A DNA stretch of 5,729 bases from DASVDK01 sp036562265 [NCBI: Thermodesulfobacteriota bacterium]. Its GTDB lineage: Bacteria; DASVDK01. The DNA lies in the NCBI GenBank assembly GCA_036562265.1, contig DATCKS010000566.1, forward strand, positions 1 through 5,729, written 5' to 3'. Made by a program: the position numbers and the translations under genes. The notes beneath the pieces were generated by a model. The model did no database searches, was not told the DNA's origin, and worked only from the letters and a program-made list of their open reading frames with translations. Positions 2,344 to 5,729 of the stretch are shown in pieces (within the stretch, counting starts at the first letter, position 1; the number at the start of each line of letters is the position of its first letter).

Positions 2344-2344
<1 letters not shown>
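551..2344 (+). CDS. Membrane sensor histidine kinase (CACHE-like periplasmic domain, HAMP, HisKA, HATPase), probably T4P-regulating
   Basis: This 597-residue protein senses an unknown signal and phosphorylates the activator encoded next to it. In order it has: an Ala/Pro/Arg-rich cytoplasmic tail (1-40); TM1 (about 44-66); a periplasmic domain of about 145 residues with a PAS/CACHE-like VVVTDRQGVVLADTDG stretch (126-140); TM2 (about 212-233); HAMP (about 234-286); a charged coiled coil (about 285-322); and HisKA with phospho-acceptor His335 in AHEIGNPL. The ATPase domain shows an N box (NLAINAADAM, 443-452), a G1 box (DTGEGI, 521-526), an F box (FDPFFTTK, 535-542) and a G2 box (GTGLGL, 547-552). 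HEIGNPL-type kinases (HPK4 group) usually pair with NtrC-family regulators, as here. Pseudomonas PilS has six TM helices, so this is not PilS by architecture; AtoS/ZraS-like kinases fit better. An unusual stretch of about 39 residues sits between the N and G1 boxes (472-510). The stop overlaps the next ATG (TGATG). All catalytic boxes are intact. Confidence 0.93.
2335..2339 (+). promoter_or_regulatory. Shine-Dalgarno sequence of the sigma-54 activator gene
   Basis: GGGAG lies inside the last codons of the kinase gene, 4 bases before the ATG at 2344. A GTG at 2341 is in the same frame but would leave only one base of spacing, so the ATG is preferred. With the TGATG overlap this points to translational coupling of kinase and activator. 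Confidence 0.5.
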
Positions 2345-3726
<1,382 letters not shown>

Positions 3727-3735
3727 GCCCGGGGC

Positions 3736-3758
3736 GGGCCCGACCCCGGTGCGGGCCC
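3736..3758 (+). other. GC-rich stem-loop just after the activator gene, without a U-tract
   Basis: GGGCCCG (3736-3742) pairs perfectly with CGGGCCC (3752-3758) around a 9-base loop, starting 9 bases after the activator stop codon. It is followed by six A residues (3761-3766) and no T-run, so it is not a canonical intrinsic terminator on the + strand. It may stabilise the operon mRNA end or stall polymerase. Confidence 0.35.
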
Positions 3759-3779
3759 CGAAAAAAGTAGCGATCGGGA

Positions 3780-3802: not shown

Positions 3803-3870
3803 GGGCCTGGGGCCCCGGCTTCCCGCCGGCAGCGGGGCGTTGCCCTCCCGCGGGCGCCCGTGCCGCCGGG

Positions 3871-3886
3871 TGGCACGCCGCTTGCT
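3871..3886 (+). promoter_or_regulatory. Sigma-54 (-24/-12) promoter for pilW
   Basis: TGGCACGCCGCTTGCT matches the sigma-54 consensus TGGCACG-N4-TTGCW at every fixed position of the -24 and -12 blocks. The GG (3872-3873) and GC (3884-3885) are separated by the required 10 bases. Counting from GC as -13/-12, transcription would start near 3897, about 6 bases before the ATG at 3903. The gene for a sigma-54 activator lies directly upstream, which supports the call. A near-copy of this element sits in front of fimT. Confidence 0.75.
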
Positions 3887-3902
3887 CGTCGTCCGCCGCG
3901 CG

Positions 3903-4646
3903 ATGCCGGCACGACTGCGACCACGGGAGGCTCGGCGCGGGGAGGCGGCGGGGGTCACCCTCGTCGAGTTGGCCGTCGCCCTCGCCGTGGCGGTCGTCGT
4001 GACGCTCGGCATCTACCTCCTCTACGCGGGCGCCACCCGCTCCTTCGTGGCCCGCGACCCGGTCCTCGAGGCCCAGCGGGTCGCCCGCCTCGCCATCGAG
4101 TCGCTGACGCAGGACCTGCTTCGCGCCGGGTACGGGGTTCCGTGGCCCGCCCCGGCCATCCCCCACGCATCGGCCGACGCCGTCACCGTCGAGTACTTCA
4201 ACGACCAGGCCGACCGGTTCGAGCGGGTGCGGTACGCCCTCGACGGCGAGGGTCGGCTCGTCCGCGAGGTGCTGCGCAGGACGGGAGACGACTGGACGGC
4301 GCCGCCCGAGTCGGTGCTGAGGGAGGTCGTCGCCGAGCACGTCCGCTTCGCCGACACCGACGGCGACGGCGTGCGGGAGCCGGGCGAGGCCCCCGCGCTC
4401 GAGTTCGCCTTCTTCACGGAAGCGTCGGCGCCGGCCTCGCCGGGCGCGGACGGGCGCCTCGACGTGACCATCCCGCTCGACGCCGCCTCGGGAGACGCGG
4501 CCGCCGGGCGCCTGCGCCTGATCCGCCGCGTCGCGATCACCCTCACCGTGCGGCCGGCCGAGCCCGACCCCGTGACCGGCGCCTACCTCCACCGGACGCT
4601 TCGCGCCGAGGTCGTCCTGCGCCACGCCGGCGGGGGGCCGACGTGA
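3903..4646 (+). CDS. pilW: PilW-like type IV minor prepilin
   Basis: This 247-residue protein has a class III (prepilin) signal: a basic leader MPARLRPREARRGEAAG, a cleavage site after Gly17, the mature start VTLVE with Glu at +5, and a hydrophobic helix to about residue 42. It should be cut by the peptidase at the left of the window and sit at the pilus tip or base as a minor pilin. The pattern after the helix (LEAQRVARLAIESLTQDLLRAGYG, in two blocks over 55-78) is typical of PilW-type proteins, whose globular part is otherwise variable. Residues 151-162 form an EF-hand-like loop, DTDGDGVREPGE. The +1 residue is Val, where Phe or Met is usual. The ATG at 3903 is chosen because upstream in-frame starts (TTG 3840, GTG 3870, TTG 3882) lie in or before the promoter. 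No Shine-Dalgarno precedes it. It could instead be a GspJ-like pseudopilin, but the pilus context favours PilW. Confidence 0.82.
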   Translation: MPARLRPREARRGEAAGVTLVELAVALAVAVVVTLGIYLLYAGATRSFVARDPVLEAQRVARLAIESLTQDLLRAGYGVPWPAPAIPHASADAVTVEYFNDQADRFERVRYALDGEGRLVREVLRRTGDDWTAPPESVLREVVAEHVRFADTDGDGVREPGEAPALEFAFFTEASAPASPGADGRLDVTIPLDAASGDAAAGRLRLIRRVAITLTVRPAEPDPVTGAYLHRTLRAEVVLRHAGGGPT

Positions 4647-4887
4647 AGCGCTCCGCCCACCACCCGCCCGCGCCCTGACGGCGCGCCGATCCGTCGGTTC
4701 GGGCGACCGGGCCGGCGAGACGGCCGCAACCGGGCCTCGCGGCGCCGTTCGGGCCCGCTCGTACCTCGCAAAAAGTTCGCAGGCAGGCCAACCTGCTTGC
4801 GCGCTGCGGCCGCCCGCGCCCGGCGTGACGGCCCGGCAATTGTCGTCCAAGTTGCTGACGTGGCGAGGATATTTGACTGGAAGCACA
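4647..4887. other. Intergenic regulatory region between pilW and fimT, no gene seen
   Basis: No credible coding sequence, tRNA or rRNA is visible here. The first part (4647-4760) is very GC-rich without a canonical terminator. From about 4764 the base composition becomes more AT-rich (AAAAAG, CAATTGTC, GATATTTGAC), as expected for a promoter-proximal control region. It carries the dyad at 4778-4801. A TTGACT at 4873-4878 resembles a -35 hexamer but has no matching -10 at the right distance. Confidence 0.6.
4778..4801. repeat. Imperfect 10-bp dyad, candidate activator-binding (enhancer) site upstream of fimT
   Basis: CGCAGGCAGG (4778-4787) and CCTGCTTGCG (4792-4801) are inverted repeats around CCAA, nine of ten positions matching (the tenth is a G-T pair). 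The centre lies about 137 bases upstream of the predicted fimT start, within the usual range for sigma-54 enhancer sites. On the - strand the structure is followed by AACTTTTTG, so a minus-strand terminator is an alternative, but no minus-strand gene reads into it. Confidence 0.4.
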
Positions 4888-4899
4888 GGTCAGGTGACC
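4888..4899. repeat. Short perfect palindrome GGTCA-GG-TGACC abutting the -24 element of fimT
   Basis: Two 5-base half-sites in inverted orientation flank a 2-base centre. They end one base before the -24 TGG at 4901 and include the AGGTGA that could serve as a ribosome-binding site for the ATG at 4905. The position would suit a repressor or an accessory regulator; no family can be named. Confidence 0.3.
4892..4897 (+). promoter_or_regulatory. Shine-Dalgarno-like AGGTGA for an alternative, longer fimT start (ATG 4905)
   Basis: AGGTGA ends 7 bases before an in-frame ATG at 4905, which would give an 8-residue longer leader (180 residues in all). This ATG lies inside the -24/-12 element, so a transcript from that promoter could not use it. 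Only a promoter further upstream could make the longer form. Confidence 0.35.
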
Positions 4900-4900
4900 C

Positions 4901-4916
4901 TGGCATGGCGCTTGCT
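4901..4916 (+). promoter_or_regulatory. Sigma-54 (-24/-12) promoter for the fimT-pilV operon
   Basis: TGGCATGGCGCTTGCT matches TGGCACG-N4-TTGCW with one substitution (T for C at 4906). GG (4902-4903) and GC (4914-4915) are 10 bases apart, as required. Transcription would start near 4927, about 2 bases before the ATG at 4929. Together with the next two bases it matches the pilW element at 16 of 18 positions. Confidence 0.7.
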
Positions 4917-4928
4917 CGGTCGCCGGGC

Positions 4929-5447
4929 ATGCACACGCGTCGCTCGGCGACCGCGGCCTCGGGCTTCACGCTCATCGAGGTCGTCGTCGTCCTGACGGTC
5001 ATGGTGATCTTCATGCTGATCGCCCTGCCGAGCTTCCGGACCTGGGTGGTTCAGCAGCAGCTGCAGTCCGCCGTGGCGCAGGTCGAGGCCGACCTGCGGC
5101 TGGCGCGGATGACGGCGATCAACGAGAACGGGCCGGCGACGATCCGGTTCCAGGCGCCGCCCGGCAACGCCTACGAGGTCTTCATCGACGACGGCGCCGG
5201 CGGGGGGACCGCGCGCAACCTCCAGCGGGACGGGGGCGAGACGCTCGTCGTGTCGCGGACGCTCGATCACGGGATCGTCTTCTCGGCGGTCGACTTCAAC
5301 GGCGGGGTCGCCATGTCGTTCAACGGCCGTGGGCTCAAGGCGCTGCCGGCCACCGGGCTCGCCCAGGTCGTTCTCGAGAACCGGGACGGGACCCGGTACC
5401 GGATTCGGGTGAGCCCCGCGGGGAGCATCGATGTCTCGCGTCTGTAG
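4929..5447 (+). CDS. fimT: FimT/GspH-type minor prepilin
   Basis: This 172-residue protein (from ATG 4929) has a 12-residue prepilin leader MHTRRSATAASG, predicted cleavage after Gly12, mature start FTLIE with Glu at +5, and a hydrophobic helix to about residue 34 ending in ALPSF. The FimT/GspH pattern follows: a helix with LQSAVAQVEADLRLARMTAI (45-64), then beta strands including TIRFQ (71-75), YEVFIDDG (82-89), a FNGRG turn (131-135) and a C-terminal strand RYRIRVSPAGSIDV (156-169). The role is that of a minor pilin in pilus priming; some FimT proteins bind DNA for natural transformation. The ATG at 4929 fits the -24/-12 promoter but has no Shine-Dalgarno. The ATG at 4905 has one (AGGTGA) and remains a real alternative. 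The last 17 bases overlap pilV. GspH of a type II secretion system is the other reading; the neighbours PilV and PilW favour the pilus. Confidence 0.87.
   Translation: MHTRRSATAASGFTLIEVVVVLTVMVIFMLIALPSFRTWVVQQQLQSAVAQVEADLRLARMTAINENGPATIRFQAPPGNAYEVFIDDGAGGGTARNLQRDGGETLVVSRTLDHGIVFSAVDFNGGVAMSFNGRGLKALPATGLAQVVLENRDGTRYRIRVSPAGSIDVSRL
5420..5425 (+). promoter_or_regulatory. Shine-Dalgarno sequence of pilV
   Basis: GGGGAG lies within the end of fimT, 5 bases before the ATG at 5431. It supports this start and co-translation with fimT. Confidence 0.6.
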
Positions 5448-5729
5448 ACCCGGCGTGCGCCGCGCGGCCGCCACGAAGCGCGCTGGCTTCACCCTTCTCG
5501 AGGTGCTCGTCGCGGCGGTCATCCTCGCCGTCGGCCTCCTGGCGCTCGGCGCCGCCGAGATCACGGCGGCCGGCGCCACCGGCCGGTCGCGCGCGGTGTC
5601 GATCGCCACGGCGTACGGCGAGGAGATGATCGAGCGCATCCGCCGCAACCGCGACGAGATCGCCGCCTACAACGGCTTCGACACGCAGAACTCGACGACC
5701 CGGCCGCCCGGGGCCGGCATGCTGCAGAC
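5431..5729 (+). CDS. pilV: PilV-type minor prepilin, 5' part, 3' end outside window
   Basis: The frame starts at ATG 5431 and runs off the right edge after 99 full codons without a stop. A 19-residue basic leader (MSRVCRPGVRRAAATKRAG) precedes the cleavage site after Gly19, with mature start FTLLE and Glu at +5. The hydrophobic helix EVLVAAVILAVGLLALGAAE follows (24-43). The next block, AYGEEMIERIRRNRDEIAAY (61-80), is the helix typical of PilV, where family members show an alanine-rich stretch and then an E-R-(M/I)-R-x-N-R motif. The role is that of a minor pilin in the tip or priming complex, made as a prepilin in the inner membrane. The start overlaps the fimT end by 17 bases with a strong Shine-Dalgarno, so the two are one operon. 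More minor pilins (PilX, PilY1) are expected beyond the edge but cannot be seen. The C-terminal domain is missing from the window. Confidence 0.87.
   Translation, partial: MSRVCRPGVRRAAATKRAGFTLLEVLVAAVILAVGLLALGAAEITAAGATGRSRAVSIATAYGEEMIERIRRNRDEIAAYNGFDTQNSTTRPPGAGMLQ

Follow-up and report, generated by a model that had tools for sequence, protein, structure and literature searches.

The two prepilin genes downstream of a pilS-pilR pair in this window (the whole 5,729-nucleotide stretch of DNA analysed here) raise the question of how a message is translated when its predicted sigma-54 transcription start lies almost on its start codon. The genes are all on the plus strand in the order partial pilD, PilS-like kinase, PilR-like activator, PilW-like prepilin, FimT/GspH-type prepilin, and a PilV-like prepilin truncated by the window end. 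The PilD-like prepilin peptidase (3–488; PF01478, E 1e-21) has its 5' part beyond the window. The PilS-like sensor histidine kinase (551–2341) carries HAMP, HisKA, and HATPase_c domains, and its full-length relatives adjoin pilD and pilR. In the 10 best PilS loci among 148 genomes belonging to one phylum, pilR adjoins pilS in all 10, and pilD is also visible in 9; the tenth has a contig end there. At E 1e-80, PilS had no match in 149 genomes from the same phylum as an Acidobacteria MAG or in 140 from that of a Polyangiaceae MAG, empty results that are uninformative by themselves. The PilR-like sigma-54 activator (2344–3726) is of the NtrC/AtoC kind, with response regulator (PF00072), AAA+ (PF00158, E 7e-75), and Fis helix-turn-helix (PF02954) domains. 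It is up to 68% identical to relatives that have the same gene order. Gene order and relatives are the grounds for the name PilR, since none of the 25 NCBIfam models among those listed reaches its cut-off. A search of Rfam gave no match.

The type IV prepilin signature, a short basic leader ending in G followed by a hydrophobic stretch with E at +5, is present in pilW, fimT, and pilV. The PilW-like prepilin (3903–4646, from the in-frame ATG of the open reading frame) has the leader MPARLRPREARRGEAAG and the cleavage motif G|VTLVEL. Pfam has no match for it, and its NCBIfam prepilin match is weak (E 4e-4, far under the cut-off), so the name PilW is assigned from motif and position. The FimT/GspH-type prepilin (4929–5447; PF12019, E 3e-11, and PF07963) has the leader MHTRRSATAASG and the motif G|FTLIEV. 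The PilV-like prepilin (5431–5727, its 3' part beyond the window; PF07963, E 7e-8, with TIGR02523 just under the cut-off) has the motif G|FTLLEV. Its reading frame overlaps the last 17 nt of fimT (5431–5447), with a GGAG 5 nt before the ATG and within fimT. This overlap suggests translational coupling of pilV to fimT, unlike the two upstream prepilins.

A predicted sigma-54 promoter precedes each of the two upstream prepilins. The pilW site (TGGCACGCCGCTTGC, 3871–3885, in a promoter annotated at 3871–3886, plus strand) has no mismatch to TGGCAC-N5-TTGC and scores 19.5; the fimT site (TGGCATGGCGCTTGC, 4901–4915, in a promoter annotated at 4901–4916, plus strand) has one mismatch and scores 18.5. 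Both have the GG and GC dinucleotides at -24 and -12, N10 between them, and the TGGCAC...TTGC context, and the gene for the enhancer-binding PilR-like activator adjoins them. The score uses hand-set weights, and 18.5 was chosen as the cut-off after the sites had been seen; on this scale, the window holds two sites at or above 18.5, whereas 300 Markov sequences averaged 0.027 and none contained a site of 19.5. Between 3700 and 4990, a strict scan gave no sigma-70-like promoter (zero is also expected in shuffles), and the plus strand showed no terminator-like site.

An upstream element found in relatives was used to examine these promoters. The relatives' box is an inverted repeat (consensus CTATGAAAAAATTTCATAG) that was first spotted by eye in relatives and in the A-tracts of the window, before a matrix existed. 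The 19-base matrix was built without the window from the 27 of 33 relatives' promoters examined in which the box is present above a hand-set cut-off. In the class of genome G167, the box starts 69–72 nt before the sigma-54 site in 20 of 21 promoters and 101 nt before it in the other one. The repeat CTATGAAA-N3-TTTCATAG thus stands about 70 nt before the site at a near-fixed distance across the class (for example in loci L164, L182, and L222) and is a candidate PilR operator. The two top matches of the matrix in the window are split between the two intergenic regions. The best match, the candidate activator box before fimT (CCTCGCAAAAAGTTCGCAG, 4764–4782, plus strand), is 137 nt before the sigma-54 site (p = 0.019 in region-matched simulations). 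The second-best, before pilW (CCCCGAAAAAAGTAGCGAT, 3756–3774, plus strand), is 115 nt before its site (p = 0.012). Both distances are longer than the 69–72 nt usual in the G167 class. Whole-window simulations have a 95% level of 6.4, above the two scores of 5.1 and 3.4, and the evidence for the boxes is therefore their placement and not their score. A minus-strand terminator-like hairpin with a T-rich tail (4779–4796; one found compared to 0.3 expected) overlaps the edge of the box before fimT.

Two observations support both putative sigma-54 promoters: each has a relatives-derived box upstream, and the sites of relatives are similarly placed. Non-Shine-Dalgarno starts are common in bacteria, and on that general ground the two sites could be chance or inactive sequences, with both genes read from longer transcripts. 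The number of sites compared to expectation speaks against this, as do their positions, both before prepilins, beside a sigma-54 activator, and each preceded by a relatives-type box. In many relatives, too, sigma-54 sites precede prepilins downstream of pilR. We regard chance sites as highly improbable.

By the sigma-54 convention, +1 is the base 12 nt after the C of the -12 element. The predicted pilW leader is then 6 nt (3897–3902, plus strand) and the predicted fimT leader 2 nt (4927–4928, plus strand), which agrees with the sequence-only reading that had put starts at about 3897 and 4927, roughly 6 and 2 bases before the ATGs at 3903 and 4929. The leaders would be short because the -12 element is only 18 (pilW) and 14 (fimT) bases before the ATG. 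In Campylobacter jejuni, the sigma-54 motif is placed 8–13 nt upstream of the transcription start in the available text of PMC3847290. As we read it, this spacing would give a pilW leader of about 3–8 nt. For fimT, transcription would begin at some point between 4 nt before the ATG and a position just within it, which makes a truly leaderless transcript possible.

Neither prepilin ATG has a Shine-Dalgarno sequence, as that reading had stated. Pairing with the anti-Shine-Dalgarno is -1.9 kcal/mol at the pilW ATG3903, with no exact match of 3 or more bases, and -4.4 at the fimT ATG4929, with 3 exact bases. The reading had also set these two starts against those of the kinase, the activator, and pilV, all said to have Shine-Dalgarno sequences. 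This applies to pilR (-6.9) and pilV (-7.3), each with a GGAG, but at pilS (-8.6) exact pairing is limited to 3 bases. The contrast within the window is modest because random positions of this GC-rich sequence already pair well (median -5.0, a quarter below -7.4, 5% level -11.5). The further claim that no later in-frame start would keep a prepilin leader is borne out for ATG, GTG, and TTG in both genes; pilW has an in-frame CTG at 3915 that lacks a Shine-Dalgarno. In the predicted fold of the fimT message, the AUG is unpaired. The first 45 nt of the pilW mRNA have a predicted fold of -17.3, compared to -10.1 to -14.1 at three control starts; this more stable fold does not help the near-leaderless claim and would speak against it.

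Translation of pilW could instead begin upstream, at TTG3882, GTG3870, or TTG3840, on a transcript from another promoter, with ATG3903 an internal codon. The frame is open to 3840, the codon-position GC of 3840–3902 (0.81/0.71/0.95) resembles that of the gene body, and TTG3882 has a GGTG 9 nt before it (-7.6). However, GTG3870 and TTG3840 lack an exact Shine-Dalgarno match of 4 bases, all three codons precede the predicted +1 and two are inside the promoter, and the strict scan gave no sigma-70-like promoter. An upstream pilW start seems to us very improbable.

The case of fimT is less simple. A second in-frame ATG (4905–4907, plus strand) lies inside the -24 element and would give a longer leader (MALARSPG followed by MHTRR...). 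It is preceded by the Shine-Dalgarno AGGTGA (4892–4897, plus strand), which has 6 exact bases to the 16S 3' end and ends 7 bases before the ATG. Its pairing, -10.3 kcal/mol, is the best of the 12 starts tested; it falls between the 5% and 25% levels of random window positions and is therefore good but not rare. ATG4905 is upstream of the predicted +1 and so would not be usable by the sigma-54 mRNA. The plus strand has no terminator-like site, and read-through from pilW could therefore use it. The mature pilin would be identical from 4905 or 4929 after peptidase cleavage. A relative, L118, shares this layout. Its only in-frame prepilin start is inside the -24 element, with a Shine-Dalgarno of -14.4, and no in-frame start follows the predicted +1. 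The L118 region is about 257–336 nt after the end of the pilR alignment, with a full match to the half-sites of the upstream box ahead of it. Sigma-54 geometry and translation start are at odds in this locus, a warning that a good-looking sigma-54 site need not set the start and that the real start can lie within the -24 element.

These observations give weight to the alternative that fimT is translated mainly from ATG4905, on a transcript from pilW or an unseen upstream promoter, with the sigma-54-like site at 4901 partly a coincidence or a second promoter. Against it are the candidate box within the 282-nt gap ahead of the sigma-54 site, the lack of a sigma-70-like promoter in the strict scan, and the codon-position GC of 4797–4904 and 4905–4928, which is unlike that of the gene body (both segments are short). 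The alternative does not apply to pilW. We consider it unlikely as the main route for fimT. The near-leaderless reading is thus the simplest for pilW, and for fimT it meets competition from the Shine-Dalgarno-led start on any longer transcript. pilW is the stronger and cleaner case, and fimT may be dual-mode.

The class of G167 was used to see how often this layout occurs. Of its 63 genomes, 44 have a PilR match at E<=1e-165; 37 of these plus G729 were examined, giving 38. G759, G745, G753, G036, G571, G551, and G752 stand outside this count; G036, viewed apart as L161, has a 12-nt leader with a Shine-Dalgarno. A site scoring at least 15 precedes the first motif-matched prepilin in 21 of the 38. 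Three more were assigned by eye (G732, G733, and G734, all leadered), which makes 24 paired promoters. The 14 left out comprise 6 without a strong site and 8 with a strong site (at least 18.5) but no assignable prepilin start (G610, G717, G723, G725, G726, G737, G738, and G750). In the G610 locus, L180, the strong site (19.5) is kept about 68 nt after the end of the pilR alignment; unlike its close relatives L173 and L179, it has no start within 60 nt after +1 that opens at least 35 codons. L180 may possibly have lost its first prepilin or carry a frameshift in it.

The first ATG is 2–8 nt after +1 and lacks a Shine-Dalgarno in 7 of the 24 assigned promoters (L164, L168, L172, L173, L175, L179, and L211); in the other 17, the start was taken at least 13 nt after the predicted +1. 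A Shine-Dalgarno of -5.6 or better (hand-set cut-off, -5.5) is present in 13 of the 14 leadered promoters among the 21 that were site-scored. None of the starts of L193 has one; in L183 and L193, a GTG or TTG additionally occurs 10 and 8 nt downstream of +1. L172 and L175 have no later start, although L172 has a TTG upstream of +1. The remaining 5 near-leaderless promoters have a second ATG 16–22 nt after +1, also lacking a Shine-Dalgarno. A later start with a Shine-Dalgarno therefore occurs in 0 of 5 near-leaderless and 13 of 14 leadered promoters (Fisher p = 0.0005, values entered by hand).

The class closest to the window in the PilR tree is that of G101 (support 88). From its 13 matching genomes, 13 loci were examined, leaving aside a second PilR copy, L237. 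A sigma-54 site precedes an assignable prepilin start in 8 loci and not in the other 5. Seven of the 8 were counted as leadered. The exception, L235, is near-leaderless, its only ATG being 4 nt after +1 and lacking a Shine-Dalgarno. An alignment shows that L235 lacks the stretch that carries the Shine-Dalgarno in L231, L232, L234, and L236. L234 was counted as leadered for its ATG at 19 nt with a Shine-Dalgarno, despite an in-frame ATG 1 nt after +1; otherwise the near-leaderless count is 2 of 8. L048 likewise has an in-frame ATG 6 nt after +1 plus a later Shine-Dalgarno-led ATG, and these two loci show that a close ATG by itself proves nothing. L235, like L172 and L175, shares with the window the lack of any later start.

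Most comparable promoters of relatives are followed by an ordinary leader of 12–41 nt with a Shine-Dalgarno. The same is true of a wider set of 33 rows that includes more distant relatives (two rows are the window, one a duplicate), in which L051 and L063 look like false sites. One member of the collection, L047, is a record titled as a Bifidobacterium breve MAG with a PilR-like activator 46% identical to that of the window; it is possibly mis-binned. The PilR tree has 36 rows, 8 labeled near-leaderless and 28 leadered, and was built without L118, L235, and second copies of one genome. It requires at least 6 changes between the two states, with 12 of 33 inner branches open and no sure direction of change. 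The 7 of 24 and 1 of 8 promoters in two classes make near-leaderless sigma-54 prepilin genes look recurrent and not unique. The layout of the window seems to be a minority state that has arisen several times. The sequence-only reading had called leaderless translation from sigma-54 promoters unusual. That view holds to the extent that most relatives are leadered with a Shine-Dalgarno, and it is weakened by the other near-leaderless sigma-54 prepilin promoters found here.

These data lead us to favor, as probable though well short of certain, a PilS-PilR/sigma-54 switch that acts on two prepilins with near-leaderless mRNAs, in an arrangement that recurs through leader loss. Phosphorylated PilR would bind the upstream boxes and open sigma-54 polymerase at both promoters. 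The primary transcripts would begin about 3–8 (pilW) and 0–4 (fimT) bases before the AUG, which leaves no room for a Shine-Dalgarno, and translation would use the AUG near the 5' end by a near-leaderless route. The leader between +1 and the ATG would have been lost repeatedly among PilR-linked prepilin promoters. The exact N-terminus of a prepilin should be tolerant of such change because the peptidase cuts the leader peptide off. The sites, their spacing, the lack of a Shine-Dalgarno at the ATGs, the upstream boxes, and the recurrence in relatives come from sequence; from them we infer promoter activity, the position of +1, the mode of translation, and the direction of change. An AUG close to the 5' end reportedly favors leaderless expression in E. 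coli strongly, so the 6 nt of pilW may cost efficiency. More tentatively, and with somewhat less than even confidence, we suggest that the fusion of promoter core to start codon is a recurrent design in which the choice of promoter for fimT sets the translation mode. The Shine-Dalgarno-led start at 4905 would be used on read-through mRNA and the near-leaderless start at 4929 on the sigma-54 mRNA.

Elements of this arrangement are known from other systems. Geobacter is said to have two PilA isoforms. The available text of PMC2725144 describes an RpoN-dependent promoter for Geobacter sulfurreducens pilA, mapped by 5'-RACE, and its control by PilR. The window resembles that system in having a pilin gene directly downstream of pilR with an RpoN-type promoter. 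It differs in having two minor prepilins, each with its own promoter and a predicted leader of 2–6 nt. In Deinococcus-Thermus, a promoter core a few bases before the open reading frame gives leaderless mRNA, as it may here, but the core there is an ORF-adjacent -10 element and that of the window is an activator-dependent -24/-12 element (PMC12340547, in the part available). The predicted pilW and fimT messages are also like the leaderless mRNAs of C. jejuni and Bradyrhizobium japonicum in having the AUG at or near the 5' end and no Shine-Dalgarno (PMC3847290 and PMC4842269, available portions). Those leaderless genes go with sigma-70-type motifs, a sigma-70 promoter sequence in C. jejuni (PMC3847290) and an extended -10 type motif in B. 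japonicum (PMC4842269), whereas the prepilins of the window go with sigma-54 sites. In the accessible portions of the open-licence literature covered, supplements being outside its scope, we saw no leaderless sigma-54 genes (the articles include PMC3616915, PMC3847290, PMC5243855, PMC4842269, PMC12340547, PMC3333780, PMC12403871, and PMC4176332, and in addition PMC2725144, PMC12316311, PMC9031893, and PMC6771412). The published sigma-54 sets, given there as 112 transcription starts in S. meliloti and 1201 RpoN-like promoters in B. japonicum, may hold near-leaderless cases. PilR/sigma-54 control of pilins and leaderless mRNAs are thus each known, and their combination was not seen in the portions of the literature covered.

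If the near-leaderless reading is true, a strict, activator-dependent on/off switch of transcription would be tied in these prepilin genes to a different mode of ribosome entry. The leadered and near-leaderless orthologues would be natural pairs for testing what the leader does.
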